DNA of 25,289 nt from Schoenoplectus triqueter (taxonomy: Eukaryota; Streptophyta; Magnoliopsida; Poales; Cyperaceae). Positions 560-24,595 of the stretch are shown here, in pieces. A program made the position numbers and the translations under genes. Below the pieces are notes generated by a model. It had not been told where the DNA came from. It saw only the letters and a list, made by a program, of their open reading frames with translations, and ran no database searches. The DNA lies in contig CAXKVV010001708.1 of assembly GCA_964058805.1 (NCBI GenBank), positions 1-25,289 on the forward strand, written 5' to 3'. The first letter of the stretch is position 1, and every line of letters starts with the position of its first letter.

Positions 560-1093
560 ATTGTTTAGGATAATAAAGTAAATATTATTGTTGTTCAAGA
601 AGCTAAACACTCATAATTTTTCAATAGAATGCTTAAAGTAATTTTTAGTAAATTTGATAATGAGTATAACTCTCCGTGGATTATTTAGTGGTTTAATAGT
701 TGGGTGTGATAGTTCAAAATTTATTATTGAATAATTAATTATTAGATTATTTTTCATTACTCTGATGATTATAAATTGAGTAATATGAAGTGGATTTTTA
801 CTACTATGTATGGTCCTATTAATGCTAGTTTAAAAAAAACAATTTTAGAAAAAAAATAATAAATATTCATATATGTAGCTATGAAGCATGGATTTTTTAT
901 GGTGATTTCAATGCCATTATATTTAGAAATGAAAATTTTCATATTAGAACTAGTGCTCGAGTTAATGCATTTTTAGATGATTTTAATTTGATTGAGTATG
1001 AGTTGGCTAATAGAAAGTATATTTAGTCTAATGAAAGATAATTTGCTTTACTTGATAGGCTCATCTATAGTATGCAGTGAGATATTTCGTTCC
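560..1093 (+). pseudogene. Degenerate L1-type LINE endonuclease fragment
   Basis: Translated fragments match the order of motifs in plant L1-type apurinic endonucleases. A strand ending in IIVVQEAKH (about 584-610) resembles the conserved QE-T/A-K catalytic segment. WIFTTMYGPIN (791-823) resembles the YGP segment. WIFYGDFNAII (from 889) is the GDFN motif, followed by a region ending in SNER and LLDRLIYS (to about 1072), the usual end of the domain. The first two pieces share one frame and the GDFN part lies in another, and several in-frame stops interrupt both, so the copy is long dead. The LTR element begins just after the LDR-like segment and therefore inserted into this LINE. The assignment rests on motif order only. 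Confidence 0.6.
1089..1093. repeat. Candidate target-site duplication (left copy)
   Basis: The five bases GTTCC abut the LTR terminus TGTGCGACCC. Ty3/gypsy integrases normally duplicate 5 bp. The partner copy should follow the outer end of the right LTR, which lies beyond the window, so this cannot be confirmed here. Confidence 0.35.
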
Positions 1094-1269
1094 TGTGCGA
1101 CCCTTTTTCGCGCGCCGCCGCACCGCCGCCGGGCGATGGGTTCTGCGGAAGAAGGACACGGAGATCCCTCCCGAGCGTGCATCTGCTGGGTGTCGGCCGA
1201 TTCTGCCGTTTAGAGATATTTGGATGCACATTCAGGGGGTTTTTAGTGATTGTGAGTTCTTGTAGATTC

Positions 1270-1291
1270 CGGTGGGCGCAAGCCCCCACCG
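1270..1291. other. GC-rich hairpin near the LTR end
   Basis: Arms CGGTGGG (1270-1276) and CCCACCG (1285-1291) pair perfectly around an 8-nt loop. It lies about 180 bp from the LTR terminus, in the part that would be U5. The right copy is at 23073-23094. Confidence 0.5.
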
Positions 1292-1409
1292 TTAATTACC
1301 CTGGGCTACGAACCTCGAGGCACCTCTGGATCTTTGAAAGAGAGAAGCAAATAGTATAGTTAAAAGATGGTCAAGTGGTCGTCTAAGTTTATAAAAGAGG
1401 TCTACGGAA

Positions 1410-2004
1410 GATGAACCTACAAACAGATCGGTTCAATCTATGGAAGACAAACCTACAAACAGATCGGTTTTGTCCTATGGAGGACGAACCTACAAACAGA
1501 TCGGTTCAGTCCATGCCACCTCGAGATGTAACCTTACCTACAGACCAGGTTAATCTCTTCATAGGGGGCTTGAGGTGAGTCTACATACAGATCGACTCGA
1601 CCTCCGTTGATCTAGAAGATAAACCTACAAACAGACCGGTTCAATCTTAACTAGTCAACAACCAATCACACAAAATACAACTCGAAGCGCTGAGCCGGTT
1701 GATCTTGAGGTTGGTGAATCAGGAGAAGGGTGGATATGGCCCACGTGTTTCTTCTCACCGATCTTCTAGACCATGAATTCGAAGCACTAAGCCGATTCAT
1801 AAACCTAGGAAACACAATTGCACACAATATTAAACCTGAAGCGCTGGGCCAGTTCAACATTGAGGCATGTGTTAGTGAAGGAACCTACCTACAGAACGGT
1901 TCACATTCACTGTTTTGTGGATGAATCTACCTACAGACCGATTCAATCTCACAATCTCGGGAAATGAGCCAGGAGACAAACTCATCGACGGACGAGTTCA
2001 GTCT
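1410..2004 (-). repeat. Inverted-repeat array with conserved 12-nt loop, plus a 16-nt-loop family
   Basis: Eight hairpins share a loop of the form TACNNACAGANC: 1410-1438, 1446-1474, 1482-1512, 1523-1557, 1572-1604, 1617-1647, 1875-1910 and 1917-1952. Inner arms differ but pair: GAACC/GGTTC, AAACC/GGTTT, GAGTC/GACTC, GAATC/GATTC, AACCT/AGGTT. Outer arms beyond a one-base bulge also pair and also differ: GGAC/GTCC, GAGGT/ACCTC, GAGAT/ATCTC, GTGAA/TTCAC. A second family has a 16-nt loop around GAAGCRCTRRGCC at 1671-1707, 1773-1800 and 1825-1862. A further hairpin with a different loop is at 1974-2004. The right LTR repeats the array, shifted by 21803. Confidence 0.85.
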
Positions 2005-2018
2005 TGCCAGCTCAAATG

Positions 2019-2632
2019 GTCATGAATTACTTGTTCATGACACCGAGTCATTAAGATGTCGCTTCGCTCGGACATCTTAATGTTCTTCTTCTTCAAAGTC
2101 GACATATCTCTCCATGCTGATGTCGTAACTTTGGTCATTCTTCAGCGAGCGTCGAGATGTTCTTGTCTCAACTAATCATTCTACGTGTTGCATTACTTGT
2201 GCAAAATTACTATGTTGCCCTACACCCCTTGTGTGAGCGTATTCAATCATGAGTTACTTGCTCATGGCAGCGAGTCATTAAGATGTCACCTATCTAGGAC
2301 ATCGTAATGTTCTTCTTCTTCAGAGTCGACATATATCTCCATGTTAGTATCGTAGCTCTGGTTATTCTTCATCAAGTGTCAAGATGTTCTTGTCTCGACA
2401 TGTTCCTTCATGTTGCTATCAAAGCCTTATTCATCTCGCGTCAAGATGTTCCTGTCTCGACGTATCTTGTTATTCTTCATCAAGTGTCAAGATGTTCTTG
2501 TCTCGACATATCTTCTCGTATTGCTATTAAAGCCTTAATCATCTCACGTCAAGATGTTCCTGTCTCAACGTACCTTCTTTATATTGCTATCGAAGCCTTA
2601 ATCATCCTATGTCAAGATTTTCTCGTCTTGAC
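2019..2632 (-). repeat. Second inverted-repeat array in the LTR
   Basis: Three families occur. GTCATGAA/TTCATGAC with loop TTACTTG (2019-2041) recurs as CATGAG/CTCATG with the same loop (2248-2266). A 12-bp stem CATTAAGATGTC (2049-2082, perfect) recurs at 2276-2309 with one mismatch. Six copies of an 8-nt-loop hairpin, mostly TGTTCYTG, have arms of the GTCAAGA/TCTCGAC type: 2151-2172, 2377-2400, 2439-2462, 2485-2508, 2546-2571 and 2611-2632. The block includes an imperfect tandem duplication of about 229 bp (2019-2172 against 2248-2400). The right LTR holds the same array at 23822-24435. Confidence 0.85.
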
Positions 2633-2699
2633 TAATGTATGCAAATATTCTCATGTGGCTCTACACTCCTTATGTGAGCATGTTTATTCATTTCTAAAA

Positions 2700-2753
2700 T
2701 GCACAAAGTCTATGATATAATATCTTCCATTATTATTTTTATTATGAAGATGC

Positions 2754-2812
<59 letters not shown>

Positions 2813-3960
2813 TTTATTCTATTTATCTATGTAGAAAATTATTTACAAAAATAATAGGAAAAGGGGTTAGCTATTTAACTAGAATTTCATTTATATTTTT
2901 GGGATTTTTATAATAGCTAAAATAATAAAATTTTATTTTATTATTTTTAAACTCTATTCACTTTGTAGAAAATCACTTACAAAAATAATAGAAAATAAAA
3001 TGGCTATGATTTTTATTTGTATTTTTAAAATGTTTATAATAGCCAAAGTAATAGAATTTTATTATTATATTCTATTATATTGAAATACTATTCATTATGT
3101 AAGAATCATTTACAAAATTAAAAGATGGTTAGCTATACTATTTTACTATTATTATTTTTATATATTTTTTATATTTTTAATATCTATAATAGCTAAAAAG
3201 AAATCATTACTAATATTCTATCCTATTTATTATACTATTCATTATATCTATTTTTATTATTTCTATTTATTATCTACAGAAAAGTATAAGATTTTTATTA
3301 TTAGTTAAAGATAGTCATAAGAGATGAAATTCATTATGTTTTTATTACAACTATTATTTTTATTACATTTTATTCATCAAAAGTATTTTTATTGTATATT
3401 TGTGTAGAAATAACAAAAGAAATACAATTCATATTATAAAACTATATTATCATTCTTTATTATAAAAGAAAATGTATTTTACTATTTATTACCATAGTAG
3501 TATATTTTGCATATTTTGTGCTATTTATTTTTATTATTATTTTTACAGAAAATATCAACATAATATCTATTATTATTCATATATCTTTTTTTTATTTATC
3601 AAAGAATATAGCTAATCTTATTGTTTATTATAGTATATTACTATCATCATTATTATTTCATGGAAAATCACTTGAAAAATCACTAAAATATATCTAGTTA
3701 TTATTTATGATTTTTATTTGTATTTTTGGAATTTTTATAGTATTTAAAATGGCAAGTCAAAGCTAGGTCAAATATACCAATATATGTAATGTATTTTGCT
3801 TTTAAATTGTTTTATCATGATTATATTTTTAAAACTAGAATATTATTGTATAGAAAAATGGTATGAAAAATAAGAAAATTTTAGAAACAAATTTGAGTTA
3901 ATTTGGAGTTTAGGAGCATTTTCAAATCATTTATTTACCATATATAATTAATGTTCTGTT
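2700..3960. other. AT-rich block of the LTR, no gene
   Basis: This is more than 1.2 kb of very A+T-rich sequence, with loosely repeated phrases such as TTTACAAAATAATAG and ATAATAGCTAAA about every 120 bp between 2830 and 3200. No coding frame is visible. The part up to 3498 is proved LTR; the rest continues in the same style. Confidence 0.7.
2758..2811. repeat. ATT trinucleotide microsatellite
   Basis: About 18 uninterrupted ATT units. The right LTR copy (about 24561-24601) is about 12 bp shorter and carries one C interruption. This is the largest difference between the two LTRs and probably reflects slippage after insertion. Confidence 0.95.
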
Positions 3961-6534
3961 ATTAATTGACTAATGGGCTTAATCTGGGCCTTCAGATTTG
4001 TATCAAGATCAGCGCCTATCTTTCATTTAACTTTATTCTTATTTGGGCCGCCAGATTAGATTAAGATTTGCACTGCGTGGATCGACGGCCCAGATCAATT
4101 CATGCTTTAATTTCCTAAATGTTCAATAGCCCAGATCCTTTGGATTTGTCCCAATATTCGTGCGTCTCTTTGAGATTCGTATAGAAAGCGTCCCCTTCTG
4201 TCTCTCTCCCCCGTGCTTTGAGATGCGCACTGGATAGGCGATCTTGGTGCTCCGGCGACCTGACCGGAGATCGGCTATTGCTTACGGCGTCGCCTTGGCA
4301 TGAGGAGCCAGTCTGTATCTTCAGATAATACATCGGTACGGTAGATCGTTGGCGTCACCATGATCAATAAACTGACTCGTACCGTTTTGGTACCGAATCC
4401 GTTTCCAATCGAATTAAGCCAATTCCGATCAACTTTCTAGCATTTCTTGATTTGTCTATGCAATTCCAAACCTCAATTAACATCATTGATGATTTACACA
4501 CTGTAATTACCTCTATTCTTTCTTGATTCACCAAAGATGCTGATTCATGGTTGATACCGATCGGCGATTCAATATTATATTCTGTATTTCCAGTCAATTG
4601 CCAAGAATTGCTTAATCTTATTGATATGAAACTCATCGCCTATGTAATGCATCTCAATTGAAGCATATAGCTTGATCAATTGGGGTGTTTTCGAGTGTTT
4701 TGCATTACTGGTTCTGAGTTCCAGCGATTGCTTCCAAAATTTCTATCAATTACTCGATTGAAAAGTTGAATTCTTGGAACAATTGCTTGGAAATACAATG
4801 ACTAAGAGGTCAGTGACCTTCGATTAGTCTATCTTCCTTGATTAGTGCTAGGAGATTGTATAATCTTCGACTAGCTCTTCTGGCAAATCAATTCGAGCTC
4901 TTGATCACTTGATTAATCAAGATAAAGGCAAGAAAACAAAACAAGAATGATCTATATAATGAGGCGACAGCTTAAAGAAAAGAATTCAATCAAGAAAGTT
5001 AGGAAATTCAATCGGATTGAAAAGGAAATTTATGAAAATGCAAGTAACAGTACTAAAGCTCTGAAATTACTCAAAATCAAGCACAATTACAACTCAAACT
5101 TCCTATGTACAATGAATACACTCACCTTTCCTTCTTCTCTGTAGCTCTGAGCTCTTAGATTGATTGTTAATAATGGAAAAGGGTGACTGTTTGCCAAGTT
5201 CTCAACACTTGTTGAGATCAATTGGCTTTCTAGCTTCTCACTTGCTCTCTAAGCTTCTCAGGGATCTTACAAATGCTCTAAGGGTCGTGTGTATGCCTCT
5301 GGTTCTTGGTTCCATTCACTGGCTAAGGGTTTATATAGAAATCCATTGGTTTGACCGATTTTGACCATCTCAATCCAATTGCACATGGTGTATTATACTC
5401 TTCACTCTAACTGCTTCCTTGTATGCCTTATGGTCCACTGAACCGAGTCTCCATTGCCTAGCTCATGTGCAACTGCCTAGAGGCAGTTATAAGTTCATTT
5501 TATTTGCTGATTTGCCACTATTCGGTTCCCATACTCTTGCAAGCCTCTCTAGCCCCTTCTAGATCCTTCCAGGCCTCATACCATGTCTATATAAGCTGCT
5601 AGCATGCTCCCTTAACTCCATTTTACAGAATTGATCTCCATTCACATCTTTTCTCCCATTACAAGCCATAATCAAGCTTCAATCTTTCATTCCAATTCCT
5701 TGCTTGTTTCTTCTGTCTCAAAGCTTCACCATCATCAACTCAGTGTCAGGCAACTCCCTGTGCTCTCATCTAGTCGATTTGCAAGCTCCATCACAGTGTT
5801 TGATCAACTCACTTCTAGGCCGAATTGTGAATTGGTACAACTCCTACATCCAGCATTCAACTCCTCTCAATTGTCACTCTAACACCACCGCCTGAGGTCC
5901 TAGAAGCTCTTCCAGCCATTAATTGCAAGTTCCAAGCTTCAATTGGCAAGTTCAAAGTTTTGACCCGAGGTGTTGCTTCTTGCCATTTCTCTCTTTATAT
6001 TGCATCATTCTGAAATCTAAATCCATACACCTTCTCTCCTTTGTACTAGATAGCCAGGGCTAAGAGCAATTGATCTGAAGTTGATCCCTTTGTGTGATCT
6101 CCATTGATGGCGCCATTGACAGCTTCAGCCATCGGGAAGAAGAAGAGAAGAAGAGAGAGGAAGGAGGGAGCGTCCACAAGCTCAGCTGCGTCCGGTGTTC
6201 ATGCGCCAAGGCAAAGGAGAAGAAGAGTGCAGAGAGAGAGTCCCCAGGCACCAGGTGCATACACTCTCTTTCCTTTTATTTAAATTTCAGTCAATAGATC
6301 TGTGTGGACTTGGTTTATTATCTTCTTATATGCCACAGACTCATGAACCTGACTAGTGGGCCCTACTTGTAAGTTCACTGAGTCTTGGTTTATAGATATC
6401 GTTAGTGACTGATTAGTGTATGATTAGGGTTAATTGATATGATATGGCATGTTATGATTGGCTCATTAGTTTAATCACCTTCCTTTTATCTCTGATTATT
6501 CACTAACTAATGCTGAGGTGGCCTTATGATATGG
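3961..6534 (-). other. Probable remainder of the LTR (U3 side), no gene
   Basis: I find no supported coding region here. Base composition is more balanced than in the preceding AT-rich block. The sequence contains TATA-like boxes on the element strand, a purine-rich stretch on the + strand (6137-6170), and short open frames with no recognisable protein. I assign it to the LTR because a plausible LTR terminus with an adjacent polypurine tract lies further right at 6761, but the second LTR copy needed to prove this is outside the window. Confidence 0.4.
5330..5337 (-). promoter_or_regulatory. Candidate TATA box of the element promoter
   Basis: On the minus strand this reads TATATAAA within TCTATATAAACCC, a good plant TATA box. 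If used, transcription would start near 5300 and run left through the whole inverted-repeat array to the LTR end. The corresponding box in the 5' LTR lies beyond the window. A second, weaker box that can be read on either strand is at 5588-5594. Confidence 0.35.
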
Positions 6535-8025: not shown

Positions 8026-8272
8026 CTCTTCACTTTGCGCTCAGCATTCCGTTGTGGGACTAATGGATTTGTTCCGGGGTTAGGCAGCGACCTCTCCTGA
8101 TCAGTGGGCCACCTTTCCACTGCTCTCTCTCTTTCCCCCCTTTCTTATGATTTATCATTAATCATCAATTTATTTTCATTTATTCATCTACTCATCCTTG
8201 AAATTTTTTCAAGGGTAAACAAAGAGCCACCCACCAAAGCGGGTCCCGAAGATTTTTAGGAAATTAAGGGGG

Positions 8273-10154
8273 TTGCTTTGGTGCATATATTCGTCGCACA
8301 TTTTCTTTTCCTATCTTCTTCCCTCCTTTATTGTTGACTTTATCACCTCTATTCTAGATTCGACCATCTCTCCATATGGCACGATTCCTAGACGTCCTCG
8401 GAGTCATTATCTCTCTTTCTACGAGGATCCGGAGGACTGGATACCCACCATTAGGGTTACACGCGGCACCCCCATACATCTTCGAGCTGGTGGTTTGATT
8501 TTTCGCGACGAGCAGCCTCACGATATTACACCCTTACTGCCTCGAGATCTTTCAGCCGCAGCACCTCCTGTTCATCTCCTTGGCAAGGAGATGATCGATG
8601 GAGAGGCCTCTCGCTGGGCTAGCATTGACTTCAGTCTTCCACTCAGGTATCATGGGCATCAGTTAGAGTGGATTCGCTACATCCTTACACAGGAGAGGGA
8701 TGCTCTTTGTAGTTTAGGTGTGTACAGTTGTATTTTCTTGTCGATGTTTCGGTACCACATTGACACACCTTGGCTCTGTGCTTTCTGCGAGCGGTGGAGC
8801 TACTCCACTAACACCCTCTTTATTGACGATCGAGAGTTGACTCCCACACTATGGGAGATTCGTCAGCTGACCGGTCTGCCCGTATTCGGTCATTATTATG
8901 ATGAGTTCTTATTATCAGAGGATGACTTGAGGGACCCTTCCCTGCATCCAGCTTCTCTTCGGGAGGTGTACAGGATTTATGATCAGTTGAGAGGGCAGCA
9001 TCTTTCTGTCCCCTTCAGATTCTGGATATCTTATTTCACTGATCGGGTACATTCTCATACCGAGTGTTGTGCTTCTACTCGTGACCCTTTTGGTACCGGA
9101 CATCTCGGTCTTTTCAGTGATGTGGCTGCTCCTTCACAGGACACTCTATGCTCACACGAGATCGATCGTGAGACTTATTTGACAGCCTTTCTTTCCTGGT
9201 GGATTTGTTTCTTTCTACTTCCCAGTTCGGGGGCTCGTACCATCCGTCCTTCGGTATTTGTGATGGCGAGTCAGATTGCTCGCGGTGAGAGAGTTTCATT
9301 GGCCGTGCCCGTCTTGGCCAATATCTACAGGAGTTTGCGAGGTATAGCATCTTCACGCGATCCTTCTCACTGTAGGGAGTTGGTACCTTGGCATTTTATT
9401 AGTGGATGGTTGCATATGTATTGGTCTGGCTTGTATCACCCATCCTTATCATCAGACTTGAGGGCCCACCTACCCATCTTGGGTGACTTAGCCGGTACAG
9501 AGCCTGCCTCTCTGACTCCAGAGGATGCTCGTTTCAGATTCTACCGCAGCCATGACCATCTGAGGTTAGCTCGTACTAGATTGGCTACTCACCACCTGGC
9601 TGGGACCACTTGCAGATCTCTAGTTGATGCGGCATTTCATTCTAGAGATTCTTCTCCTCTCAGAGATCAGCCAGATGTCTTAGACTATTTCATCAGTCTT
9701 CGCCACGGGTACTTACCACTCCGTATTGGCGATTATGCTTTCATAGAGCCCTATTCTCCACACAGATGTGCACATCAGTTTGGTTTAGACCAGGACGTGC
9801 CTCTCTTTCTCCTTCGTCCTGAGTCTTTAGCGATGGACCTGGAGGGCCTCGGGTGGTGCTATTCACATCTATTCCGCTTAGGGACAGGTTCTCACTTTCA
9901 GACGGTCCCTGCTTCCCGTTCACCCACGTTCTCGAGACGCTACATTTGGTGGTATTATAATGTCATTCGCTCGTACCAATCATACACCCCTTCAGTGGTG
10001 GTACGCAGTACTTGCCCCAGGGATAGAGGCAGTTCATTATCTAGCCTTTCTTATGATGACTTCATCTCTTTCCCACTTCTCACTTCAGAGCCAGTGGATC
10101 TCCAGGGGTTAGATAGTCGCTGCCTTTGTTCGTCTACTAGGACTCAGCTCACTG
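8273..10154 (+). CDS. Antisense passenger gene, exon 1: plant mobile domain
   Basis: This frame encodes a PMD (aminotransferase-like plant mobile domain, the family of Arabidopsis MAIN and MAIL1). Recognisable landmarks are the WLCAFCERW segment with the following ELTPTLWEIRQLTGLPVFG, and SWWICFFLLPSSGARTIRPS with the following SLAVPVLANIYRSLRGI. MAIN and MAIL1 act in the nucleus in transposon silencing and genome stability; PMDs also occur inside transposons. The true start is unresolved. The frame opens at 8273 without ATG, and the first in-frame ATG is 8591, which still keeps the whole PMD. An acceptor-like AG at 8356-8357 would start the exon at 8358 in phase 1, matching all downstream junctions. 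The exon ends at a GT at 10155. The gene lies opposite to gag-pol, in the region before the 3' LTR, where plant Tat elements are known to carry extra ORFs. Confidence 0.82.
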
Positions 10155-10233
10155 GTATGCTCCAGATTTATCCCTTCTTTTATTTTAAGCTTAGATTTCA
10201 GGCCAGATTTTTGACAGATTTCTTTTTAATCAG

Positions 10234-11246
10234 ATTCTGCATACGAGTATGATGAAGCAGAGCCCGGCTTCTCAGTCCCTCGCCCGAGAGCTGTTGACAC
10301 TTGTTCTCATCCACCTGCTGAGCCACCGGCTTCAGCCGCCGTGGAGAGAGATCGAGACGGCGCTTCTCGGCCGCCTTTCCCATCTTTTTTCCCTTCTCCC
10401 ATTTTGAGTGATTCTCTTTACTGATTCACTTTATCCTTATTCGGGCTCATTTCACTTACAGCTCTAATTAAGGTTTATTTTCAGCTCGTGGGATATCTCC
10501 TGTAGAGGCAGCTCAGGATGACATCGTAGCAGATCCATCAGCGCCTGCGAGTGCTGCCATTTCAGGGTTTTGCACCGACCTTGTCGTCGCAGGTTCGTGT
10601 GCTCCATTTAATACTTAGTTGCCAGCATGCACTAGTATTTTTATTCTTACATGTAGATTTTACAGGCCCTGAGGCCGATGACATGGCATCTCCACACCGC
10701 TCGGAGCCTTTCTTTCATGACGGCCCTGCTTCTCCGTCGATCTTGCTGGTACCTACTGGAGACGGTGACTCATTTGATGTGGTTCTGGGACCAGTGCTCA
10801 CTCTTGTACGATCAGAGGAGGCTTCTTTAGAGCAGAGGAGTCCATTGGCTGTCGAGCCCGCAGGCGACGAGCCATTACTGATCGAGGGAGGGCCATCTCA
10901 TGCTTCTTCATCTCCCGACGGGCAGCCTCTCATGGCCACAGATGGCAGAGTCTCGACTGAGCGGGTTGCAGTCGATTACGACTCAGAGTTGGATGAGAGC
11001 TGGCTGGTGGAGCAGCTATTCCACAGCCCAGAGACGGGGGTTCTGGCTAGCGAGGGTCTCGCCGAGCCTCATGCTTCTCCCGGTATTTTATATTCCCTTT
11101 ATCATTTGCCCGTATTTTACTTTTCCATGCATTCATGCTTTCATTTTATTTTGTAGCCGGGTCTGGTACACCTGCGGGTCCTCCTGAGGCGACCGACATC
11201 CCTATCCCCGATTCAGTCCCGCCTGTCTCAGGCGACGAGACGATAG
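10234..11246 (+). CDS. Antisense passenger gene, exons 2-5: acidic, proline-rich linker
   Basis: I infer four exons: 10234-10407, 10485-10592, 10666-11082 and 11157-11246. Introns are 10155-10233, 10408-10484, 10593-10665, 11083-11156 and 11247-11318 (79, 77, 73, 74 and 72 nt). All begin GT, end AG and have a T-rich 3' part. Every junction is phase 1, and the joined frame has no stop, although unspliced reading hits stops in each interval (for example TGA just after 10418). The product of this stretch is rich in Pro, Ser, Asp and Glu, with no recognised domain. It links the PMD to the C-terminal exon and looks disordered. The donor at 10408 (TTGA|GTGATT) is the weakest, but it is the only one that preserves the frame. 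Confidence 0.72.
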
Positions 11247-11318
11247 GTTAGATCTTCTCTTCCCTCTATTTCTTCTTTGGTTATAACAATTTGTCTAACC
11301 CATTTATTTTACTTGCAG

Positions 11319-11929
11319 ATGTTACATCGAGGGATGTGCAGCTCGCCTTGGCCGCGCTGGCGGATGCACTCCGAGATACCTTCTTCGGGGGCTATCCGCT
11401 AGATTTCGAGATCCTAGATTCTCTGCCCAGTGGCTTCTCCTTCGATTGGTATAGGCTGATGCGGGATACCATCGCGCCAGCTCTACTCATTGCACCTCGT
11501 CTTGAGAGCACTTTCATTTCCAGGAGGTGTGAGGAGCTGCTCAGGGCTAACCAGGATGCGAGCTCTCTCGTATATCAGCACGAGTTGGAGATTCATGAGC
11601 TACGTAGGCATTTGGAGGCTGCTCGACTCCATTATCTTCAGCGGCTCTCCTCTTGTGCCGCTCTCCGCTCCATGGGAGTCAGTGGTGGGCCCGCTCGACT
11701 GCTCGTGCAGGAGCTAGAGGACCATAGATCATCAGTGGAGGGCTTCTCTCGACATTTAGCGGGACGTCTCCCGGAGTTGCAGATTCATTCGAGCGCCCGA
11801 GATAGTGCCTTTGCTCAGTTCTTGGACTTCGAGGCAGCTTCGGAGGAGGATAGGCACTCCCTCCATACTCATTTAGAGACTATTAGCACTGTGCTATTAG
11901 AGTTGGAGTCCCGCTTTTTGGGCCCATAG
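11319..11929 (+). CDS. Antisense passenger gene, last exon: helical/coiled-coil C-terminus
   Basis: This exon follows the acceptor TTACTTGCAG and runs to a TAG stop at 11927-11929. The encoded part starts with DVTSRDVQLALAALADALRD and continues through a hydrophobic segment (FEILDSLPSGFSFDWY). A long helix-prone Glu/Leu/Arg-rich stretch follows (for example CEELLRANQDASSLVYQHEL and HELRRHLEAARLHYLQ), which looks like a coiled coil and may mediate oligomerisation. No family is recognised beyond this. Joined to the earlier exons, the whole frame from 8273 is 3282 nt, an exact multiple of three, giving about 1,090 residues. That the last exon falls into frame after five predicted introns is the best evidence that the gene is intact. 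Confidence 0.72.
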
Positions 11930-13668: not shown

Positions 13669-15894
13669 CTATGTGTAGTACTTCTTCAGATATCGCCCAT
13701 TAATCGGTGGCATGGGCCTTTCACCTTCATGATCTATGAGTTGGTATGCGCCGCCTTCGTATACCTTCTCAATTACATATGGCCCTTCCCAGTTCGGAGA
13801 GAATTTCGGGCCGACGTGCCGGCCAATAATCGGCCTCTTAAGGACAAGAACAAGCTCCCCTTGTTGAAATGCCCTGACTCGCGCCATTTTGTCATATGCC
13901 CTTGCCATTTTTGCCTGATATATTTCAAGGTTCTGCTGGGCTATTAATCTCTTCTCGTCCATGGCATCCAACTCGTCCAATCTGAGTTGTTGGCATTCGT
14001 CCATGGTCATATCATTTTGCATAGCCACCCGCAACGACGGTAATTCTACCTCAAGAGGGAGAACGGCTTCAACCCCAAAAGCCAGAGAATACGGGGTAGC
14101 TTGCGTAGGCGTTCGGTATGTGGTCCGATAAGCCCATAATGCCTCCTGTAGACGATTATCCCAGTCTCGTTGGTTGCCGTCCACGGTCTTCTTCATGATA
14201 TTTATTAGGGTTTTATTAAAGGCTTCGGCCAGGCCGTTGGCTCTCGGGTTGTAAATGGACGAGAATCTCCAATCAATGTTAAACTGCTCCGCCAGGGCAT
14301 AGACTTTAGAGCTCTTGAAGGCCGTCCCGTTATCGGATATTATCCGTTGCGGTGTGCCGAATCGGTAAAGGATGTGTGTCTTGAAGAACTTAACCACATC
14401 GGATGCTTTAACTTCTTTAAGCGGAATGGCTTCAGCCCACTTTGTAAAGTAATCTGTCACCGCCAGGATAAACCGGTGACCTCTCGACGTCGGGGGGTCT
14501 ATGGGCCCCACTATATCTGTGCCCCACATATTAAATGGCCAGGATGCTACCGTGGGGTGCAACGGGTTTGGTGCTTGATGTATAAAAGGGCCATGTATCT
14601 GGCACATGCGGCACTTCTTTGCGTGCTCTTCACAATCAGCCACCATCGTGGGCCAATAATATCCCATTCGCTTGATTTTTAACTTCATTTTCGGCCCAGA
14701 CTGATGTGCTCCGCATAGCCCGGAATGAACTTCTTTCATAACCTGCCCGGCTTCAGGCCTTGATACACATCTTAGCCATAACTGATCATAAGACCTACGG
14801 TATAGCGTATTGCCCACATACGCATACCGTAGTACCCGTTTTCTTAGTTGATCAGCGATTCTTTTATCTTTGGGGAGGGTGCCATGCCGGAAATATTCAA
14901 TGAACGGCTGTCTCCAATCATCGTCTTCAGTTATCATTGTTTCTTGGCATTCCATCTTTTCTAGTCCAGCATTTTCATTATTCGCCTCATCTGTTGTTTG
15001 ACACAATGATAATGGCCTTCTATTATGAACGATGATATGGATTTCCGGCTCTGTTGGTTCACCCAGCTCTTTGGCGAGTTTGGCCAACGCATCTGCTTCA
15101 CCATTCACAGCCCTCGTGACCTTCTCGATGGACACGTACGGGATTTTCTTCATTAATTCCATAGCCTTCTGGTGATATTGTATTAGCTCCGGCTTCAAGA
15201 CCTTATACTCGCCAATTATTTGATTTATTATCAGCTGTGAATCCCCAAAAATGCGCACAGCCCTGATCTCTAGCTCCAGTGACAGCTCTAGTCCGGCGAT
15301 AAGTGCCTCATACTCTGCTTCATTATTTGTGCATGGTTCAGTTAAAGCCAGAGAATGTCGTATTATCCCGCCTTCCGGGGTTACGAAGACTAGTCCTGCG
15401 CCAGCTCGCACAGTTGGGACTCCCGGGCCCGCGATCGGCTTGATTGAAGAAGCACCATCAAAGTACATCTCCCATATAGGACTTCCTTCTTCAACATGTA
15501 GGGTTTCCTCATCAGGGAAGTCACATTTTAATGGGGAGTCATCTTGGATCGGGTGTGCAGCCAGGAAATCTGCTAGCGCCTGCCCCTTTATCGCCTTTTG
15601 CGGTGTATAGGTGATGTCGAATTCAGTGAGGATGATAGCCCACTTGGCCAGCCTTCCCGTCAACATTGGCCGAGTCATCAGATATTTGAGAGGGTCTACC
15701 TTGGATATTAAAATGATTTTATGGGCTAGCATGTAGTGCCTTAATTTCTTCACCGCGAAAATTAGGGCTAGGCAATGCTTCTCAATCGGTGAATACCCGT
15801 GTTCTGCCCCTACCATCATGCGACTTAAGTAATATAGCGCAATTTTGATTACCGTCCTGGTTTTCTTGGGCCAATAGGGCTCCCAAGGATCCAT
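13669..15894 (-). CDS. pol, second part: RNase H, archaeal RNase H, integrase
   Basis: This frame (741 codons from its first ATG) continues pol after a frame break, so residues before about 17 are out-of-frame noise. About 18-100 is the end of the ordinary retroviral-type RNase H. About 140-275 is a second, archaeal-type RNase H with YFDGAS (D146), NNEAEYEA, GDSQ (D218) and NGEADAL (D268). Integrase follows: zinc-binding H390, H397, C428, C431, then the catalytic triad D460, D521, E557 with 35 residues between the last two (DD35E). The C-terminal GPY/F module is around 695-711. Integrase inserts the cDNA; RNase H removes the RNA template. All key residues are present, so this part looks functional. 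A programmed shift at this point is not known in the lineage; a simple one-base indel is more likely. Confidence 0.93.
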   Translation of the reverse strand: MDPWEPYWPKKTRTVIKIALYYLSRMMVGAEHGYSPIEKHCLALIFAVKKLRHYMLAHKIILISKVDPLKYLMTRPMLTGRLAKWAIILTEFDITYTPQKAIKGQALADFLAAHPIQDDSPLKCDFPDEETLHVEEGSPIWEMYFDGASSIKPIAGPGVPTVRAGAGLVFVTPEGGIIRHSLALTEPCTNNEAEYEALIAGLELSLELEIRAVRIFGDSQLIINQIIGEYKVLKPELIQYHQKAMELMKKIPYVSIEKVTRAVNGEADALAKLAKELGEPTEPEIHIIVHNRRPLSLCQTTDEANNENAGLEKMECQETMITEDDDWRQPFIEYFRHGTLPKDKRIADQLRKRVLRYAYVGNTLYRRSYDQLWLRCVSRPEAGQVMKEVHSGLCGAHQSGPKMKLKIKRMGYYWPTMVADCEEHAKKCRMCQIHGPFIHQAPNPLHPTVASWPFNMWGTDIVGPIDPPTSRGHRFILAVTDYFTKWAEAIPLKEVKASDVVKFFKTHILYRFGTPQRIISDNGTAFKSSKVYALAEQFNIDWRFSSIYNPRANGLAEAFNKTLINIMKKTVDGNQRDWDNRLQEALWAYRTTYRTPTQATPYSLAFGVEAVLPLEVELPSLRVAMQNDMTMDECQQLRLDELDAMDEKRLIAQQNLEIYQAKMARAYDKMARVRAFQQGELVLVLKRPIIGRHVGPKFSPNWEGPYVIEKVYEGGAYQLIDHEGERPMPPINGRYLKKYYT

Positions 15895-18800
15895 CTAGGG
15901 CGGTCGTGTATAGAATGAGCTCCTTCCCAGGTATAGGCGCCGCCAATACTGGAGGGTTGAGTAGATATGCCTTGATTTCTTCAAAGGCTCGCTGGCACTC
16001 GCCATCCCACTTAAACGGGATATTCTTCTTAGTCAGCCGGGTGAAGGGTTGGATTTTACCCGATAGGTTGGCTATGAACCGCCTAATGTACGCCAATTGC
16101 CCTTGCAAAGATCGCAATTGTTTTAAATTCTTTGGCGGGGATAATTCAGTGATTGCTTTGATCTTGCCCGGGTCTATCTCAATTCCCCTGTGGCGTACTA
16201 CAAACCCTAGAAATTTACCAGATGATACCATGAATGCGCATTTCAACGGGTTTAGTTTGAGCGCATGTTCTCTTAGGCGGTTGAAAACGACCTCAAGATA
16301 TTGGAGGTGTTCTTCATATGACATGGCCTTGATGACTAGATCGTCCACATAGCATTCTACTATTTTGTGGATCAGATCGTCGAATATCTTCGTCATCGCC
16401 CGTTGGTAGGTGGCTCCCGCATTTTTGAGCCCAAACGGCATGACTTTGTAACAATATATGCCAATCGGCGTGCGGAATGCCGTGTGCCTCTCATCTTCTG
16501 GCGCCATTTTGATTTGATTATAACCCGCGTAACCGTCCATGAAGGAGAAGACTTCATAAGAGGATGTATGATCAATTATGATTTCGGTTACTGGGAGCGG
16601 GAAATCATCCTTAGGGCATGCCTTGTTCAAGTCCCGAAAGTCCACACAGATGCGGATTTGCCCATTTTTCTTCTTAACCGGGACGATGCTAGCCACCCAT
16701 TCTGGCGTCTCTTTTTCCCGTATGAAGCCTGCGTCGATGAGTTTCTTTGTCTCTTCCACGACCTTTTCTTCGAGTTCTATTCTCATTCGCCTCGGCGCTT
16801 GTTTAATTGGCTTGAAGGTTGGATCAATTTTCAAGTAATGGACCGCCACGTTGGGATCTAATCCAGGCATTTCTTTATAACTCCAAGCGAAGCAGTCCAT
16901 ATAGCTTTTAAGGAATGTCTTCAACCTGTCAGCCACCTCTTTTGGTAACGACGCGCTTATGAAGGTTGGTCGTGGGTCTTCTTCCGTCCCCAGATTAATT
17001 TCAGCTAACTCATCGACCGTGTTAGGCTCCTTTTCTAGCTGCTTCAAAGCATTTTTCAGGACCGGGGTATTGTCCTCTTCTGTTTCATTATCTGGCATTT
17101 CAACAGAAGTCATGCAACAACTTTCTTCCATACGGTACCCGTTGAGGGACCCCTCAAGACATGCTGCGTCATCACAGTTATACCCTAACCCCCGGGTGTA
17201 TTTTATTTTGCCATCCAGGCCCAGGACCTTATTCTGGCCACCATTCCAGAGTTCATCGAAGCGCTTGGCCTCGGCCTTGGATATGTCTCTCAGACATTTC
17301 GCCATTTTTGCTAGTTTATACAGCTCCTTTCCAAAGGGATGAGATGCAGCGTCACCGCTCGTTGCATTCTCCGATTCTTGTTCCATCACCCACTTCTTCC
17401 AAGTGTTATGATCAAGGTTCTTCAGAGACCGGGTTGAATCGCTCTGATAGAAAATTATAGCCTTGTGGATGATAGTCTTCCCTTTGAGGCGCTCTACCTT
17501 TGCCGGCACAACAAAGGTCTTTAGGGTTTGGATGTGGTTCACCTCCCTTGGTATAAGGTCTTTAAAATGCCTTTCGGGAACCACAGTAATCTCCAGCGCT
17601 GCCATCTCTTCTTCTATTTCAATATTCATGACCGAGTTGGAGCGGTAGATTTCTTTGATAGGCTTACGTCTCGCAACCTTAGGTTTACTAAGTACGGGAG
17701 TGTGCGAGATCGTATAAGCCACCCCTTTGCCCTTGTTATTCAGGTTATGCGGAGCTGGGTCTTGTTGAAAGCTCTTCGGGAGTTGGATCGTCCCATTTCT
17801 GTGCCCTTCTTCTATAAGGTCTTTGAATACCCAGCATTCTTCAATTGTATGGCCCAGTATGCGATGATAAGGGCAGAATTCGCCTTCGCCGGCTCTTTCT
17901 ATGTCTGCGGGTCTTTTACAGACGGGAAGTGTTAACCCGCTCTTTAGAGCTTGCTCAAATATCCGAGCTGTTTTATTTTTCAGAAAAGAGTATGGTTTAC
18001 TCTTCTTGACCTTGAGGGTTTGCATGACGGTCGGTTGCTTAGCTTTTGTTTCTTCCCCCTTTGATTCATCTACTATGACAATTACCCGTTTGCCGCTATC
18101 GGGTATTTGTCTTTCGGGGGTCCCGAAACGGGGTTCGCTCGTCACCTCCTTGAGTAGCTCGGAGTTATAGATCGCGGTTTGCAGGTTTTCAATCATTATC
18201 ATGATTTCATTGTGTTGCACTTTAATATCCTGCATCACTTCCCATTGTTCAGACACCTCTCTTCTATTATTTTCAACTTGGTGCCTTATTTCGTCGATCG
18301 CATTCCAGACGCGACCTTCAAAATTTTCCCGCCATGAGCGTTCTTCATTTATAGGCCTCGGCCTAACTGGGTTATCCCTTCCGCTACCGGGTCCCGTGTT
18401 GATCATATATGACTCCTCACTTTCATTATCTGTTTCGGGCCCTTTATATGGCTTCTTGAGGATGTGATAAATGATCTCTTCGTCAGACTCCTCTTCCCAG
18501 GGTTGACGATCATGGCCAGATTCTTCTCCCGAGGTGGTATTGCCCGAGTCGTTGGAATCTTCAGAGTCTTCTCCCGAAGTTGCCTCTATGATCTGAATTT
18601 GAGGGGTGTTGGTAGGCTTAAAATTGAAAATGACCTCCTCTTCAGAATCACTTGCATTGATTTCGCTCGGTTTTATTTGGGCCTTATACGCAGCCACCTG
18701 TTTGAAGCGGAAGGTTGCTTCTTCACCCGACTTTCTTCCGGGTCTTTGGGCTCGAGCACCTCGGGGTTTAATATTAAATTTGACCTCTTCTTCCTCTCCA

Positions 18801-21800
18801 GATGAGGTATCAAATTTAGGGCCTTTGTTGAAGGGTTTCTGACCTGCTTTTGTCATTGGCCGGCTCGGCGCCACAGCGGATTTAGGCAGAAAATACTGGG
18901 CGTCATTGAACTTAATCTCATGCACCCCGAATGGCTTGACATCTCCGTCAATTCTCTTTTGCTTACCATTCTCAATATATTTCAGGCATTGGTGCAGAGT
19001 AGAGGGTATGACCTGATTACTATGAAGCCACGGGCGACCCAGCAACGCCCGATAAGAGGTTTCAGCGTCAATGACATAGAATTTAGTAGGCGCTTTTAGG
19101 CTTCCACACTGCAGGTTCAGAGTTATAGCTCCCAGGGCCTTTTGGGAGTTTTGATTGAAGCCATGAATAATCACCTTTTCATCAGATAGATTCTTCACAT
19201 CTAAGGTGATGGTCTTTAGAGTTTTAAGTGGCATGATATTGATCGAAGACCCTGCGTCGACCAAGATGCGGCCAATCTTCTGCCCTCCACAATTTCCAGT
19301 AATGTATAACGGGCGGTTATGATCAACGGTGCCTATTAGGAGGTCGTCGTCTGTGAAATTTATACAGGCGGCCCGTTTGGCGGTGAATAGGGCTTCTTGC
19401 ATATTTTGCTCGACAAAGTATGACTTGTACTTCTCGGGATCTTGCAAGGCCTGGATTAGTACCTCCCTTAGGTCTTGTGACATCATCAACGCATCAAATA
19501 TGCTTAATAGCGCTGGGATCTTACGCAGATGTGCCAACACGTTGTATTCTTCGCCCGTCGACCGGGTCTTTTCTGGGTTCTTGCTTAAGCTCTCGGCCTC
19601 TTTGCCTTTATTCAGGGCCTTATCTTTTCCTTTATCGGAATCCTTGGGAGCTTGTCTCTCAGGTATATAAGTCCCGGACCGGAGTACGGCTTTGCACTCT
19701 TCATTCTTGGTCCCAGAGGTGCTTGCTTCCCCTTCGTCATTCGGGAAGAACATCTCCTCTAATGTTGGCATATCTTCGTCGTGGGAAGAATATACCATGT
19801 TGCACGAAGCACCCCAGATCTCTTCGCTTTCTTCTTTATTTATTTCTTCATCTACATTTTCTTCCTTTTGACCTAAGGTTAGCTTCTCCCAGTCTTCTTT
19901 GGAGATGAAATGTTGAAGGGTGATCGCCTCGGGACTGCCCTGCTCGTACTCTTCAATCTTGTTCTTTCTGGACTTGTTGCTTCTATGCTTCTTTTTCTTC
20001 TTAAGAACCTGGTCTTGGCTTTGGTCCACCTTATAATATACCCTGGGTTTTGGTGGGACCACTGGCGTGATATCGTCCTTCCATTTCAAGCCAGGTTCTT
20101 TCTTAAGGGCTTTAAGCATTTTAATTGATTTCTTCGATAGGTGCGTAGTCCATTGCTCTTCTTGTTCTTCGCATGACTGGCCCGGGACTTTCTCTTCCTC
20201 ATGAGAGATCGTGTTGGCCTGCTCATGGGCTGATGGGCTTTGCAAGAACCCTTTAGGTAAAGTAATTTCACCATTTTTATACGCCTTCTCGACCCAATCT
20301 TTGAAGACCCAGCAATCTTCAATTGAGTGCCCTATTATTCTGTGGTATGGGCAAAAGTTGGGTTCGTCCGATTTATCGGCATCTTCCGGGCGTTTACTGG
20401 CCGGCAGGGTTAGGCCATTCTTCAGTGCCCCTCTGAAGATTTGGGCAACTTTATCTTTTCTGAAGGAGTACGGTTTAGATTTCTTTTGTTTGAGAGACTC
20501 AAAACTCCGTGAACTCCCTCCTGGATTGGGCCTAGGTCCCTTATTATAATTGTTGCCATTTGTGCTACTGCTGCCGCCTTGGGTGTCTGCGTTGGCAACC
20601 ATCTTATCTTTCAACGAGGTGAATGCCACTTTAGTCTCGGCTCGGGCTCCTCGTTGCGGCCTATTATTCATAAAGTTCGGCACGGTATGCGGTGACATCC
20701 TTTCCATATTGGATACCGATCTGAGCAAGTCTTTGAATGTGTTGACCTTTGTCACACCAAGAAGCATGCCCATCCACCCGTCAATGTTCTTCATGATTAG
20801 GTTGACGGCCTCATCTTCATTTAATGTGCGGTCGCATTTGATGCTGAGGTTCCGCCATCTGTTGATAAAATCTGTCATTGACTCCCCTTTCTTGGGTTTA
20901 GTGCTTGCCAGATCGGCTATGTTTATTTTGTCGGATACCATGACAAATCGTGCCCTGAACGAGTCTGCCATCTCGTCCCAGGTCCTGATGCTGTTGTTTT
21001 CTAATGAATAATACCATTGAAAAGCGGTTCCCACCAAGCTCTGAGGGAATTGTCTTAACAACAATGCATCATTGCCGCCCGTGTTACCGCACGAGGCTAC
21101 AAAGTGGGCCAGGTGTTGTTCGAGGTTCAGGTCTTTATTACCTTCCCCTGAGAAGGTCCTGAAACGGGGGATCACATACCCTTTTGGATATTCTTCCAAG
21201 TCGTATACGGAAGGGTATGGATGTCCACAGTTTTTAACGGGAGGGATAGCGTATCCACCTCCAGCTATTTGCATTTGCTGGGCAATCATGGCTTGAATCT
21301 CTTTCCGGGATATTCCCGTTGGTTCAGCCTCCACATCTATAGTTCTATGTGGATGGGGTTTAGAATCGACAGGTTGTTTTCCCTTATGATTGCTTTTGGT
21401 ACTGTGGACCCCTTCTTGACGGGAGCTACCAGCTTTGAAATTGGCGTCTTGTGATTCTTGTAACGACTTGACCGCCTTAATCAATTCTTCATTTTGTTTC
21501 AGCATGGTAGCAATTAGCTCCCGTTGCCTAATCAGCTCTTCATCCCGTGCCTCGATGTGGCCTTTTAATATTTCAATCTCATCGATAGGCATCTCGGGAC
21601 GTGTTTCAACGTCATCTTCATTATCGAAGAGATCAGGGTTTTCGTTATGGTCTTCCCCTTCCCTGCTGTTGCCTTCGGGGTTGACTCTCTTTGGGGGTCT
21701 CCCTTTTCTACCATTATTCTTATTGGTATTTGTGACATGAGCTTGATTAGGCGGGGACTGGTCGTCCTGGACCATGTTCACCTCACCATCAGTATCTGGA

Positions 21801-22756
21801 TCAGTATCGTAGCTTATACTGATGGTGTTGACTGAGAAGTGCTCTTCATAACGAGCGGTTCTTCTCTTCTTCTTTGTTTGGTCAGGGGCGGTTATTTTTA
21901 AACTATTGAGTGGTATTCTCGAGCCTAATCGGCTGAATACACTCTTCTGGCCCAAGCGGCTGAACACGCTCTTGGGCGGAGCGTTAGACTTGCCGGCCTT
22001 ACTGGGCTGGGCTTGAGACTGGGGTTTCGTTGGCTGGGAACCCTTCGGGACCCACACCTGCTGGGTGCTAGGTGTTGCCTTTGATGTAAACCTCCTTGGG
22101 TTCGGAGTGGAGGCAATGGCTTGCGGCTGAGCCATGCCTTGAGAATGATCGGAGCGGGAGACGTATCGTCTCGACCTAGCGTTCTTGACGCTCTTCCTCT
22201 GCTTGAGGGCCCTGTGAGCCTTGTAGATGGCTTCTGCAGGGGTTTGAGACTTATCCTGGCGGCGCTGAGGCCTTTGAGTTGGACGAGGTGTGGGCTTAGG
22301 CACCTCCCATGCCTGGCGGAGCTGGCCTGTGGCCGAGTTCTTGGCCACTATTCGGAGAGCTGTAAATTTGTTGGAGACTGGGATAGCTGGCCTAGCCACC
22401 AGCTGGTTTTGGTATGCGTCCAGGGCCCTCTTCCTGGACGCTTGAGAGTTGTGGGCAGTTTGGGCTGCTGCCTTTGGGGCTGTCCTCTTGGACGGGCGCC
22501 TTCTCCTCTTTGGGGAGGTGGTAGGAGAGGCCATGACGTTGTTTGAGATCCCCTTGGGAGTCAGGGTGATCGATTCTTCCTCCTCGTCCGGGATGGAGAT
22601 CCGGACGGTCGCGGGAGTGAAGGCGGCCACTGGAGCTGGGCCATAGATGGTGAGTTCTTGCGGGATGGCCCCGAAGAACATGAAGAGCTTGCCCTCTGGG
22701 CTCTGTGCAGGGGTGACAGTGTAAGGGGCGAGGTTGAAGTTCCCGAAAAATGCCAT
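15782..22756 (-). CDS. gag-protease-reverse transcriptase polyprotein, first part of pol
   Basis: The frame opens at 22795 (2337 codons). I prefer the ATG at 22754-22756 (Met14), because the first 13 codons coincide with a T-rich tract ending in CAG. Numbering below is from 22795. Residues 1-380 are basic and disordered, with a VFSRLG motif twice (277-282, 286-291). About 400-450 is a coiled coil, and about 540-660 the gag capsid domain. C815-H818-H823-C828 is a zinc-knuckle-like CX2HX4HX4C. The aspartic protease (about 1140-1265) has active site VDAGSS at D1180, an unusual DAG in place of DTG/DSG. About 1330-1440 is acidic with three short SxEEE..F.FK repeats. A second coiled coil (1485-1545) and a second zinc-knuckle module (C1641-C1654) follow. 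RT (about 1985-2215) has FRDLNKACP, FGLKNAGATYQR and catalytic YVDD (2149-2152). The frame ends early in RNase H at the frame break. The product forms virus-like particles and copies the RNA in the cytoplasm. Confidence 0.93.
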   Translation of the reverse strand: MAFFGNFNLAPYTVTPAQSPEGKLFMFFGAIPQELTIYGPAPVAAFTPATVRISIPDEEEESITLTPKGISNNVMASPTTSPKRRRRPSKRTAPKAAAQTAHNSQASRKRALDAYQNQLVARPAIPVSNKFTALRIVAKNSATGQLRQAWEVPKPTPRPTQRPQRRQDKSQTPAEAIYKAHRALKQRKSVKNARSRRYVSRSDHSQGMAQPQAIASTPNPRRFTSKATPSTQQVWVPKGSQPTKPQSQAQPSKAGKSNAPPKSVFSRLGQKSVFSRLGSRIPLNSLKITAPDQTKKKRRTARYEEHFSVNTISISYDTDPDTDGEVNMVQDDQSPPNQAHVTNTNKNNGRKGRPPKRVNPEGNSREGEDHNENPDLFDNEDDVETRPEMPIDEIEILKGHIEARDEELIRQRELIATMLKQNEELIKAVKSLQESQDANFKAGSSRQEGVHSTKSNHKGKQPVDSKPHPHRTIDVEAEPTGISRKEIQAMIAQQMQIAGGGYAIPPVKNCGHPYPSVYDLEEYPKGYVIPRFRTFSGEGNKDLNLEQHLAHFVASCGNTGGNDALLLRQFPQSLVGTAFQWYYSLENNSIRTWDEMADSFRARFVMVSDKINIADLASTKPKKGESMTDFINRWRNLSIKCDRTLNEDEAVNLIMKNIDGWMGMLLGVTKVNTFKDLLRSVSNMERMSPHTVPNFMNNRPQRGARAETKVAFTSLKDKMVANADTQGGSSSTNGNNYNKGPRPNPGGSSRSFESLKQKKSKPYSFRKDKVAQIFRGALKNGLTLPASKRPEDADKSDEPNFCPYHRIIGHSIEDCWVFKDWVEKAYKNGEITLPKGFLQSPSAHEQANTISHEEEKVPGQSCEEQEEQWTTHLSKKSIKMLKALKKEPGLKWKDDITPVVPPKPRVYYKVDQSQDQVLKKKKKHRSNKSRKNKIEEYEQGSPEAITLQHFISKEDWEKLTLGQKEENVDEEINKEESEEIWGASCNMVYSSHDEDMPTLEEMFFPNDEGEASTSGTKNEECKAVLRSGTYIPERQAPKDSDKGKDKALNKGKEAESLSKNPEKTRSTGEEYNVLAHLRKIPALLSIFDALMMSQDLREVLIQALQDPEKYKSYFVEQNMQEALFTAKRAACINFTDDDLLIGTVDHNRPLYITGNCGGQKIGRILVDAGSSINIMPLKTLKTITLDVKNLSDEKVIIHGFNQNSQKALGAITLNLQCGSLKAPTKFYVIDAETSYRALLGRPWLHSNQVIPSTLHQCLKYIENGKQKRIDGDVKPFGVHEIKFNDAQYFLPKSAVAPSRPMTKAGQKPFNKGPKFDTSSGEEEEVKFNIKPRGARAQRPGRKSGEEATFRFKQVAAYKAQIKPSEINASDSEEEVIFNFKPTNTPQIQIIEATSGEDSEDSNDSGNTTSGEESGHDRQPWEEESDEEIIYHILKKPYKGPETDNESEESYMINTGPGSGRDNPVRPRPINEERSWRENFEGRVWNAIDEIRHQVENNRREVSEQWEVMQDIKVQHNEIMIMIENLQTAIYNSELLKEVTSEPRFGTPERQIPDSGKRVIVIVDESKGEETKAKQPTVMQTLKVKKSKPYSFLKNKTARIFEQALKSGLTLPVCKRPADIERAGEGEFCPYHRILGHTIEECWVFKDLIEEGHRNGTIQLPKSFQQDPAPHNLNNKGKGVAYTISHTPVLSKPKVARRKPIKEIYRSNSVMNIEIEEEMAALEITVVPERHFKDLIPREVNHIQTLKTFVVPAKVERLKGKTIIHKAIIFYQSDSTRSLKNLDHNTWKKWVMEQESENATSGDAASHPFGKELYKLAKMAKCLRDISKAEAKRFDELWNGGQNKVLGLDGKIKYTRGLGYNCDDAACLEGSLNGYRMEESCCMTSVEMPDNETEEDNTPVLKNALKQLEKEPNTVDELAEINLGTEEDPRPTFISASLPKEVADRLKTFLKSYMDCFAWSYKEMPGLDPNVAVHYLKIDPTFKPIKQAPRRMRIELEEKVVEETKKLIDAGFIREKETPEWVASIVPVKKKNGQIRICVDFRDLNKACPKDDFPLPVTEIIIDHTSSYEVFSFMDGYAGYNQIKMAPEDERHTAFRTPIGIYCYKVMPFGLKNAGATYQRAMTKIFDDLIHKIVECYVDDLVIKAMSYEEHLQYLEVVFNRLREHALKLNPLKCAFMVSSGKFLGFVVRHRGIEIDPGKIKAITELSPPKNLKQLRSLQGQLAYIRRFIANLSGKIQPFTRLTKKNIPFKWDGECQRAFEEIKAYLLNPPVLAAPIPGKELILYTTALDGSLGALLAQENQDGNQNCAILLKSHDGRGRTRVFTD
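15841..15842 (-). other. Frame break inside pol (RNase H)
   Basis: The reading frame moves by +1 beside a short A/T run, between codons for the GALLAQENQDG segment and the YYLSRMM segment, which are adjacent in related elements. A single extra base explains it. Downstream of the break the first frame runs only to a stop at 15782. Confidence 0.8.
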
Positions 22757-22759
22757 TTC

Positions 22760-22784
22760 CTGCAAAAACAAAAACACTTGAAAA
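22760..22784 (-). promoter_or_regulatory. Candidate 3' splice site just upstream of gag ATG
   Basis: On the minus strand a T-rich tract (GTGTTTTTGTTTTTGCAG) ends at an AG three bases before the preferred gag ATG. It is a textbook plant acceptor. A donor would have to lie in the LTR-derived leader; I cannot identify it. Chance T-richness is the alternative. Confidence 0.4.
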
Positions 22785-22872
22785 TTATTAGTCATTTTAG
22801 CACATAGAAGACCACTTGTATCTCTTAATTATTCTATTTGCCTCTCTCTTTCAGAGATAAGAGGAGAATCTA

Positions 22873-22891: not shown

Positions 22892-22896
22892 GATCC

Positions 22897-24556: not shown

Positions 24557-24595
<39 letters not shown>

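Follow-up and report, generated by a model that had tools for sequence, protein, structure and literature searches.

Why should a run of small hairpins in the long terminal repeat (LTR) of a plant retrotransposon keep one loop nearly constant while the arms of its stems change in step? This question is raised by a contig of Schoenoplectus triqueter (CAXKVV010001708.1), of which we analysed a stretch of 25,289 nt, referred to below as the window. The original prediction was that eight LTR hairpins carry an almost constant loop, that their inner and outer arms switch while pairing is kept, and that this marks either a structure under constraint or a process that copies one arm onto the other.

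On its sequence, the window is most of one plant LTR retrotransposon, of the Tat type of Ty3/gypsy. ORFs and domain matches place gag and most of pol at 15782-22828 on the minus strand, while an overlapping second frame at 13669-15894 (-) encodes RNase H, an additional RNase H and integrase; the domain order across the two ORFs is RVT_1, RT_RNaseH, RVT_3, rve, i.e. the additional RNase H that identifies Tat elements lies between RH and INT. Because the two frames of pol, which overlap at 15782-15894 (-), join inside the RNase H region, this copy has an interrupted reading frame. Among the 120 relatives listed for a 741-aa part of pol, the closest named one was from pineapple (68% identity over 98%) and the next from the sedge Carex rostrata (67% over 61%), and metagenome proteins were up to 96% identical. 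Between pol and the 3' LTR, where Retand elements have an antisense ORF, lies an ORF on the plus strand (8219-10252) with a plant mobile domain (PF10536, E 1.5e-26). Two more ORFs antisense to gag-pol, at 10530-11156 and 11252-11929 (+), had no Pfam match up to E 1.

The 3' LTR, as far as it was shown to repeat, occupies 1091-3498 (-) and is 99% identical to the 5' LTR at 22894-25289 (-), which is cut by the window end. The two agree at 2393 of 2408 aligned places, and 12 of the 15 differences are one gap in an (ATT)n run. The far end of the LTR was not fixed by two LTR copies on contig C33, as each pair of stretches compared agreed completely wherever they overlapped. Beyond 2700 the sequence is AT-rich and may be U3, in which case the array would fall in the 5' leader. 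Close to the gag-side end of the LTR, at 1271-1290, there is also a G+C-rich hairpin, GGTGGGCGCAAGCCCCCACC, in which all columns but one were at least 80% conserved among the 57 loci aligned there.

The eight hairpins were found as predicted. Allowing one mismatch at most, loops of the form TACNNACAGANC lie on the plus strand at 1418, 1454, 1491, 1535, 1582, 1626, 1886 and 1928, and eight further TACNNACAGANC loops occupy the corresponding places of the other LTR (23221-23731); five more one-mismatch loops in the window all lack a perfect inner stem. The original prediction reads the plus strand; with gag-pol on the minus strand, the loop in gag-pol-sense genomic RNA reads GNUCUGUNNGUA. Each hairpin follows one plan, i.e. 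a nearly constant 12-nt loop, an inner stem of 5 bp, usually a one-base bulge, and an outer stem of about 4 bp. With the hairpins assigned to the minus strand throughout, the inner arms are GAACC/GGTTC in hairpin 1 (1407-1441; outer arms AGAT/ATCT), AAACC/GGTTT in hairpin 2 (1443-1477), GAACC/GGTTC in hairpin 3 (1480-1514; outer GGAC/GTCC), AACCT/AGGTT in hairpin 4 (1524-1558; outer GAGAT/ATCTC), GAGTC/GACTC in hairpin 5 (1571-1605; outer GAGGT/ACCTC), AAACC/GGTTC in hairpin 6 (1615-1649), GAACC/GGTTC in hairpin 7 (1875-1909; outer GTGAA/TTCAC) and GAATC/GATTC in hairpin 8 (1917-1951). The inner stem is perfect in seven of the eight, and the predicted switching of inner arms stands, with one exception, an A-C mismatch at the fifth pair of hairpin 6. 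The outer arms also switch while pairing; the one-base bulge, predicted to lie usually on the same side, is not found throughout, being on the opposite side in hairpin 4 and replaced by a larger internal loop in hairpin 7.

A covariance model made from the hairpins of other loci recovered all 16 copies on the minus strand (E 1.1e-10 to 1.2e-4), i.e. each of the eight listed above and the same eight in the 5' LTR (23210-23754, which the loop search also gave). Up to E 10 it added a weak ninth hairpin with a different loop (1972-2006 (-); 15 bits, E 0.24) and its copy in the other LTR, and nothing outside the LTRs in the window. On either strand the array had a better fold than 60 dinucleotide-shuffled sequences (z -4.0 for plus, -3.5 for minus). 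An Rfam search of window positions 1080-4000 gave no match above the curated score, and one sub-threshold match on the plus strand (1962-2009, E 0.67).

The hairpins belong to a family spread over the 82-Mb assembly. Complementary arm combinations around the loop (1855 ACC/GGT and 172 ACT/AGT) far outnumbered the mismatched ones (22 ACC/AGT and 8 ACT/GGT), counts that include repeated recent copies and are not independent; exact searches of the assembly gave further complementary arms (372 GTC/GAC and 339 ATC/GAT), and the reversed controls for all four complementary combinations gave no match each. We collected 101 loci including the window LTR, of which 100 had at least one loop and between them 826 loops (645 distinct 40-mers), with 1 to 20 loops per locus, mostly spaced by 42-48 nt (commonest 46, 44, 42 and 48). 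These hairpins were gathered by the loop alone, with at most one mismatch, so that the conservation of the loop is partly by construction and some chance matches stay in the counts; the loci, drawn from the first 100 places per pattern, lean to low contig numbers, and all tests are within one genome. BLAST searches with two divergent arrays gave long matches mostly of 71-90% identity (among the best 40 of 674 and the best 40 of 694; the best 40 of 670 in another candidate scoring). When 73 loci were aligned to the window LTR, the blocks of hairpins 1-5 were 69-77% identical against 84% for the hairpin 6 block and 86-88% for the spacer at 1651-1730, a difference to which tandem misalignment within the array contributes. 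The array persists among LTRs that differ at roughly 10-30% of their sites. Beyond this genome, 20 IMG/VR contigs had one exact match each and no array, and we took these single matches for chance; the plasmid sequences searched had no match to the array.

We then asked how far the two arms of the stem depend on each other. Among 426 distinct hairpins without fetching arms, inner pairs 1-5 were Watson-Crick in 364, 334, 366, 395 and 328 cases. In a smaller first set of 275, the paired fractions were 0.89, 0.83, 0.87, 0.93 and 0.80, and fell to 0.55, 0.51, 0.56, 0.82 and 0.68 when 3' arms were swapped among hairpins. The shuffle test used 90 of 471 hairpins (86 distinct; fetching arms excluded, at most two per locus, loci of the window family included). 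In these, 84.1% of cells were paired against 73.5% after shuffling, 91 cells were changed on both sides against 25.7, and the covariation score was 0.423 against 0.221; none of 500 shuffles reached the observed paired share, double-changed cells, pair types or covariation score. Sliding the partners by one to three columns reduced pairing from 84% to 28.4-48.2%. All nine of nine pairs had some double change, a count that 207 of the 500 shuffles equalled. Of seven offsets compared with arm swaps for the outer stem, just two did better than the swaps, each of them placing an extra base on the 3' side (34.1% perfect against 16.3% swapped, and 33.8% against 11.3%). Arm swapping also cost a mean folding energy of 2.6 kcal/mol on the plus strand and 2.9 kcal/mol on the sense strand (200 hairpins).

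A stricter test in the manner of R-scape, with 100 simulations on a tree of 609 hairpin sequences, kept the substitutions of each column and placed them anew. The four top-ranked of all column pairs were stem pairs, namely inner 3 (E 0.03), inner 1 (0.06), inner 2 (0.88) and, on the outer stem, the pair that the bulge would predict (1.49, the best of the outer pairs), while inner 4 (E 7.5) and inner 5 (E 24) were not significant. At a strict threshold, one pair passes and one is borderline. This null should be conservative, because the hairpin tree was built from the stems themselves.

A rival explanation does without selection: the arms are matched by template switching or conversion, or ready-made stem types are shuffled among tandem units, with chance double changes on top. 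The range of 1 to 20 loops per locus means that units are gained and lost, as this explanation expects, and only one pair passes the tree null. We aligned the arrays of 77 of the 101 loci (14 with fewer than four loops and 10 near-identical copies were left out), which gave 20 columns with at least eight hairpins each. Positions tended to keep their own arm sequences, also across divergent LTRs, which speaks against this explanation. At 15 of the 20 positions at least one other perfect stem was seen, e.g. GAGTC/GACTC to GAGTT/AACTC or AAGTC/GACTT, and GATCT/AGATC to GACCT/AGGTC or AACCT/AGGTT; minimum spanning trees count no fewer than 25 changed pairs altogether. Compensated hairpins were found in 18 comparisons with flanks at least 70% identical, eight of them at least 90% and up to 95%; these comparisons partly share a hairpin and do not amount to 18 events.

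Complementary double-changed cells numbered 159 against a mean of 62.3 and a maximum of 80 in 500 within-position permutations of the 3' arm, and distinct complementary doubles 29 against a mean of 22.1 (reached by three of the 500), while non-complementary doubles showed no excess (8 against 10.0 expected); neither these permutations nor the shuffles model descent. A high mutation rate alone thus predicts most of the distinct doubles. Mutation pressure can account for much of the distinct double changes, yet it does not account for an excess confined to the complementary ones. Nor do we favour a process in which one arm is copied onto the other: intermediates that differ by a single base are widespread, and some have been amplified, as with GACCT/AGATC, which lies between GATCT/AGATC and GACCT/AGGTC and makes up 16 of 60 hairpins at one position. 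We consider an origin without selection quite improbable. The predicted structural constraint is supported by the shuffle and within-position tests, though the tree null lets just one pair through, with a second at the borderline; taken together, it is very likely that the fold of the array is under such constraint.

Pairing tests do not tell DNA from RNA, and an LTR is also a DNA regulatory region. The arms could therefore be constrained as DNA, i.e. as sites of a dyad-binding protein, as cruciforms, or as hairpins in single-stranded cDNA during reverse transcription. We regard this as unlikely, since the usual dyad sites keep their arms constant and arms of 5 bp around a 12-nt loop should extrude poorly. 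Constraint at the RNA level is the probable case.

If the hairpins act in RNA, the strand matters, as an A-C mismatch on the plus strand corresponds to G.U pairing in RNA of the gag-pol sense. Tree-counted losses in a first set of 388 distinct hairpins were 66 of the sense type and 40 of the antisense type (p 0.04 against the background ratio), but in the full set they were 100 and 78 (p 0.29 against the background share), and mismatch types seen at least twice at a position were 27 and 21. We rejected this asymmetry as proof of sense RNA: it is gone in the full set, and CG/CHG methylation context can produce it. In the 3' arm, the first G mostly comes directly after the last C of the loop (CG) and the second frequently stands in CAG (CHG), and because stem positions differ in this way no strand conclusion is drawn; the same objection applies to the genome-wide asymmetry between 22 ACC/AGT and 8 ACT/GGT.

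The G.U tests are thus compatible with hairpins that act in antisense RNA, driven by an LTR promoter reading toward the plant-mobile-domain ORF with the array in that transcript. That ORF is indeed antisense to gag-pol, the plus strand folds as well, and a TATAAAA stretch lies on the plus strand at about 1390, directly before the array. However, the 55 loci aligned over this stretch do not conserve it, so that a promoter at 1390 was dropped as a candidate, and the mean hairpin energy is less favourable on the plus strand (-6.0 kcal/mol against -7.7 kcal/mol for the sense strand; 200 hairpins). An antisense role appears improbable.

The reading that we prefer, at a probability of roughly 55%, is that the array is a set of constrained RNA hairpins serving as repeated, putative protein-binding sites. 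The working molecule would be RNA whose transcription, assumed here, runs through the LTR in the same direction as gag-pol, with the loop as GNUCUGUNNGUA. A conserved loop on stems whose letters may change is the pattern that a loop-reading protein would select; the stem would merely present the loop, and the repeats would offer many sites to one such protein. The element's polyprotein carries two zinc-knuckle-like CX2HX4HX4C motifs, encoded at 20312-20353 and 17834-17875 (-), and the sense loop contains UCUGU. The nucleocapsid (NC) zinc knuckle of MoMuLV is reported to bind UCUG in the leader, where several UCUG sites have been proposed (passages of PMC7599994). Together these points favour, among possible ligands, an array in the leader that would bind Gag through its zinc-knuckle-like motif and act as a multivalent packaging or dimerisation signal. 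By this analogy the ligand could be the element's own Gag, a suggestion that we make tentatively; the analogy is weakened because 117 of the 645 distinct hairpins have another letter in place of the C in UCUG. The two zinc-knuckle-like stretches, CPYHRIIGHSIEDC and CPYHRILGHTIEEC, resemble each other across a distance of 826 residues, and look as though a duplication had placed a second nucleocapsid-like segment between gag and RT. The loop can also be read in a Pumilio-like way, as UGUNNGUA, which was set aside; the G of this motif is changed in 71 of the 645.

Other recurring hairpins lie in the same part of the LTR. A second class, with loop GAAGCRCTRRGCC, recurs within 1679-1857 (-) at about 1679-1700, 1775-1798 and 1833-1857, on short, imperfect stems, and a third, around AGATGTTCYTGTCT, has about six copies within 2151-2632 (-), starting near 2151, 2377, 2439, 2485, 2547 and 2611, with arms such as TGTC/GACA, CGTC/GACG and CATC/GATG. 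In a CATGARTTACTTGYTCATG motif, A-T and G-C switch together. The fetched stretches do not all reach these places, which affects the counts of 84 loci for GAAGCRCTRRGCC and 47 for AGATGTTCYTGTCT (each up to two mismatches) and of 32 for CATGARTTACTTGYTCATG (up to four). There is a hairpin around CATGAATTACTTGTTCATG at 2020-2040 (-) and a second one at about 2248-2266 that reads CATGAGTTACTTGCTCATG. A 12-bp hairpin, CATTAAGATGTC/GACATCTTAATG, at 2049-2082 (-) has an imperfect copy with one mismatch at about 2276-2309, and these two differ in loop while sharing almost one stem, which inverts the pattern of the main array. The stretch 2000-2690 folded with z -4.9 on the sense strand and -3.5 on the plus strand. 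A CTCTACACYCCTTRTGTGAG block at 2655-2680, with a similar stretch near 2218-2240, could form a short hairpin, and among the 20 loci that align at 2640-2760 conservation was 80% or more in every one of its columns. A wider and more speculative form of the protein-binding reading is that up to 20 copies of one loop on covarying stems, with the further hairpin classes, might form a polyvalent RNA scaffold, a tandem packaging array that gathers Gag or a host loop-reading protein (e.g. of Pumilio type) on the genomic RNA.

To our knowledge, little is known of the way in which LTR retrotransposons of plants choose their own RNA and package it, and a repeated loop on interchangeable stems is an unusually clear lead on this process. 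The loop could serve as bait to which Gag or host proteins bind, with the natural arm changes as ready-made compensatory variants, and the array can be used as a marker by which to locate divergent LTRs of this retrotransposon family.

The element resembles the Ogre and Retand members of the Tat clade in its additional RNase H between RH and integrase and in its antisense ORF between pol and the 3' LTR, as described in parts of PMC6317226 and PMC11963269. A plant mobile domain is reported there in 57% of Ogre elements, and PMC11963269 gives a TRP28 domain in an antisense ORF for 97% of Retand clusters. In this the element differs from Retand clusters with TRP28, as its antisense ORF has the plant mobile domain and TRP28 had no match in the three antisense ORFs searched, two of them re-searched at E up to 1. 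The word 'hairpin' does not occur in the main texts of these two papers. The original prediction also held that no LTR element described with such an array was known, and the open-access literature searched on LTR hairpins, Tat elements and UCUG packaging motifs agrees, in that no such array appears in the titles and abstract openings among the matches listed.

The nearest parallels are the structured leaders of other elements. As with the MoMuLV packaging signal psi, the hairpins would lie near the 5' end of the RNA, and they carry UCUG as in the single-knuckle sites (passages of PMC7599994); unlike in psi, one loop type is tandemly repeated within the LTR with UCUG inside the loop. In Ty1, hairpins in the leader start dimerisation, a function supported by compensatory mutants (PMC5454406). 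Both are LTR elements with hairpins, which here may lie in a structured leader as they do in Ty1, but Ty1 has two different hairpins with complementary loops, whereas the element described here has an array of one kind.
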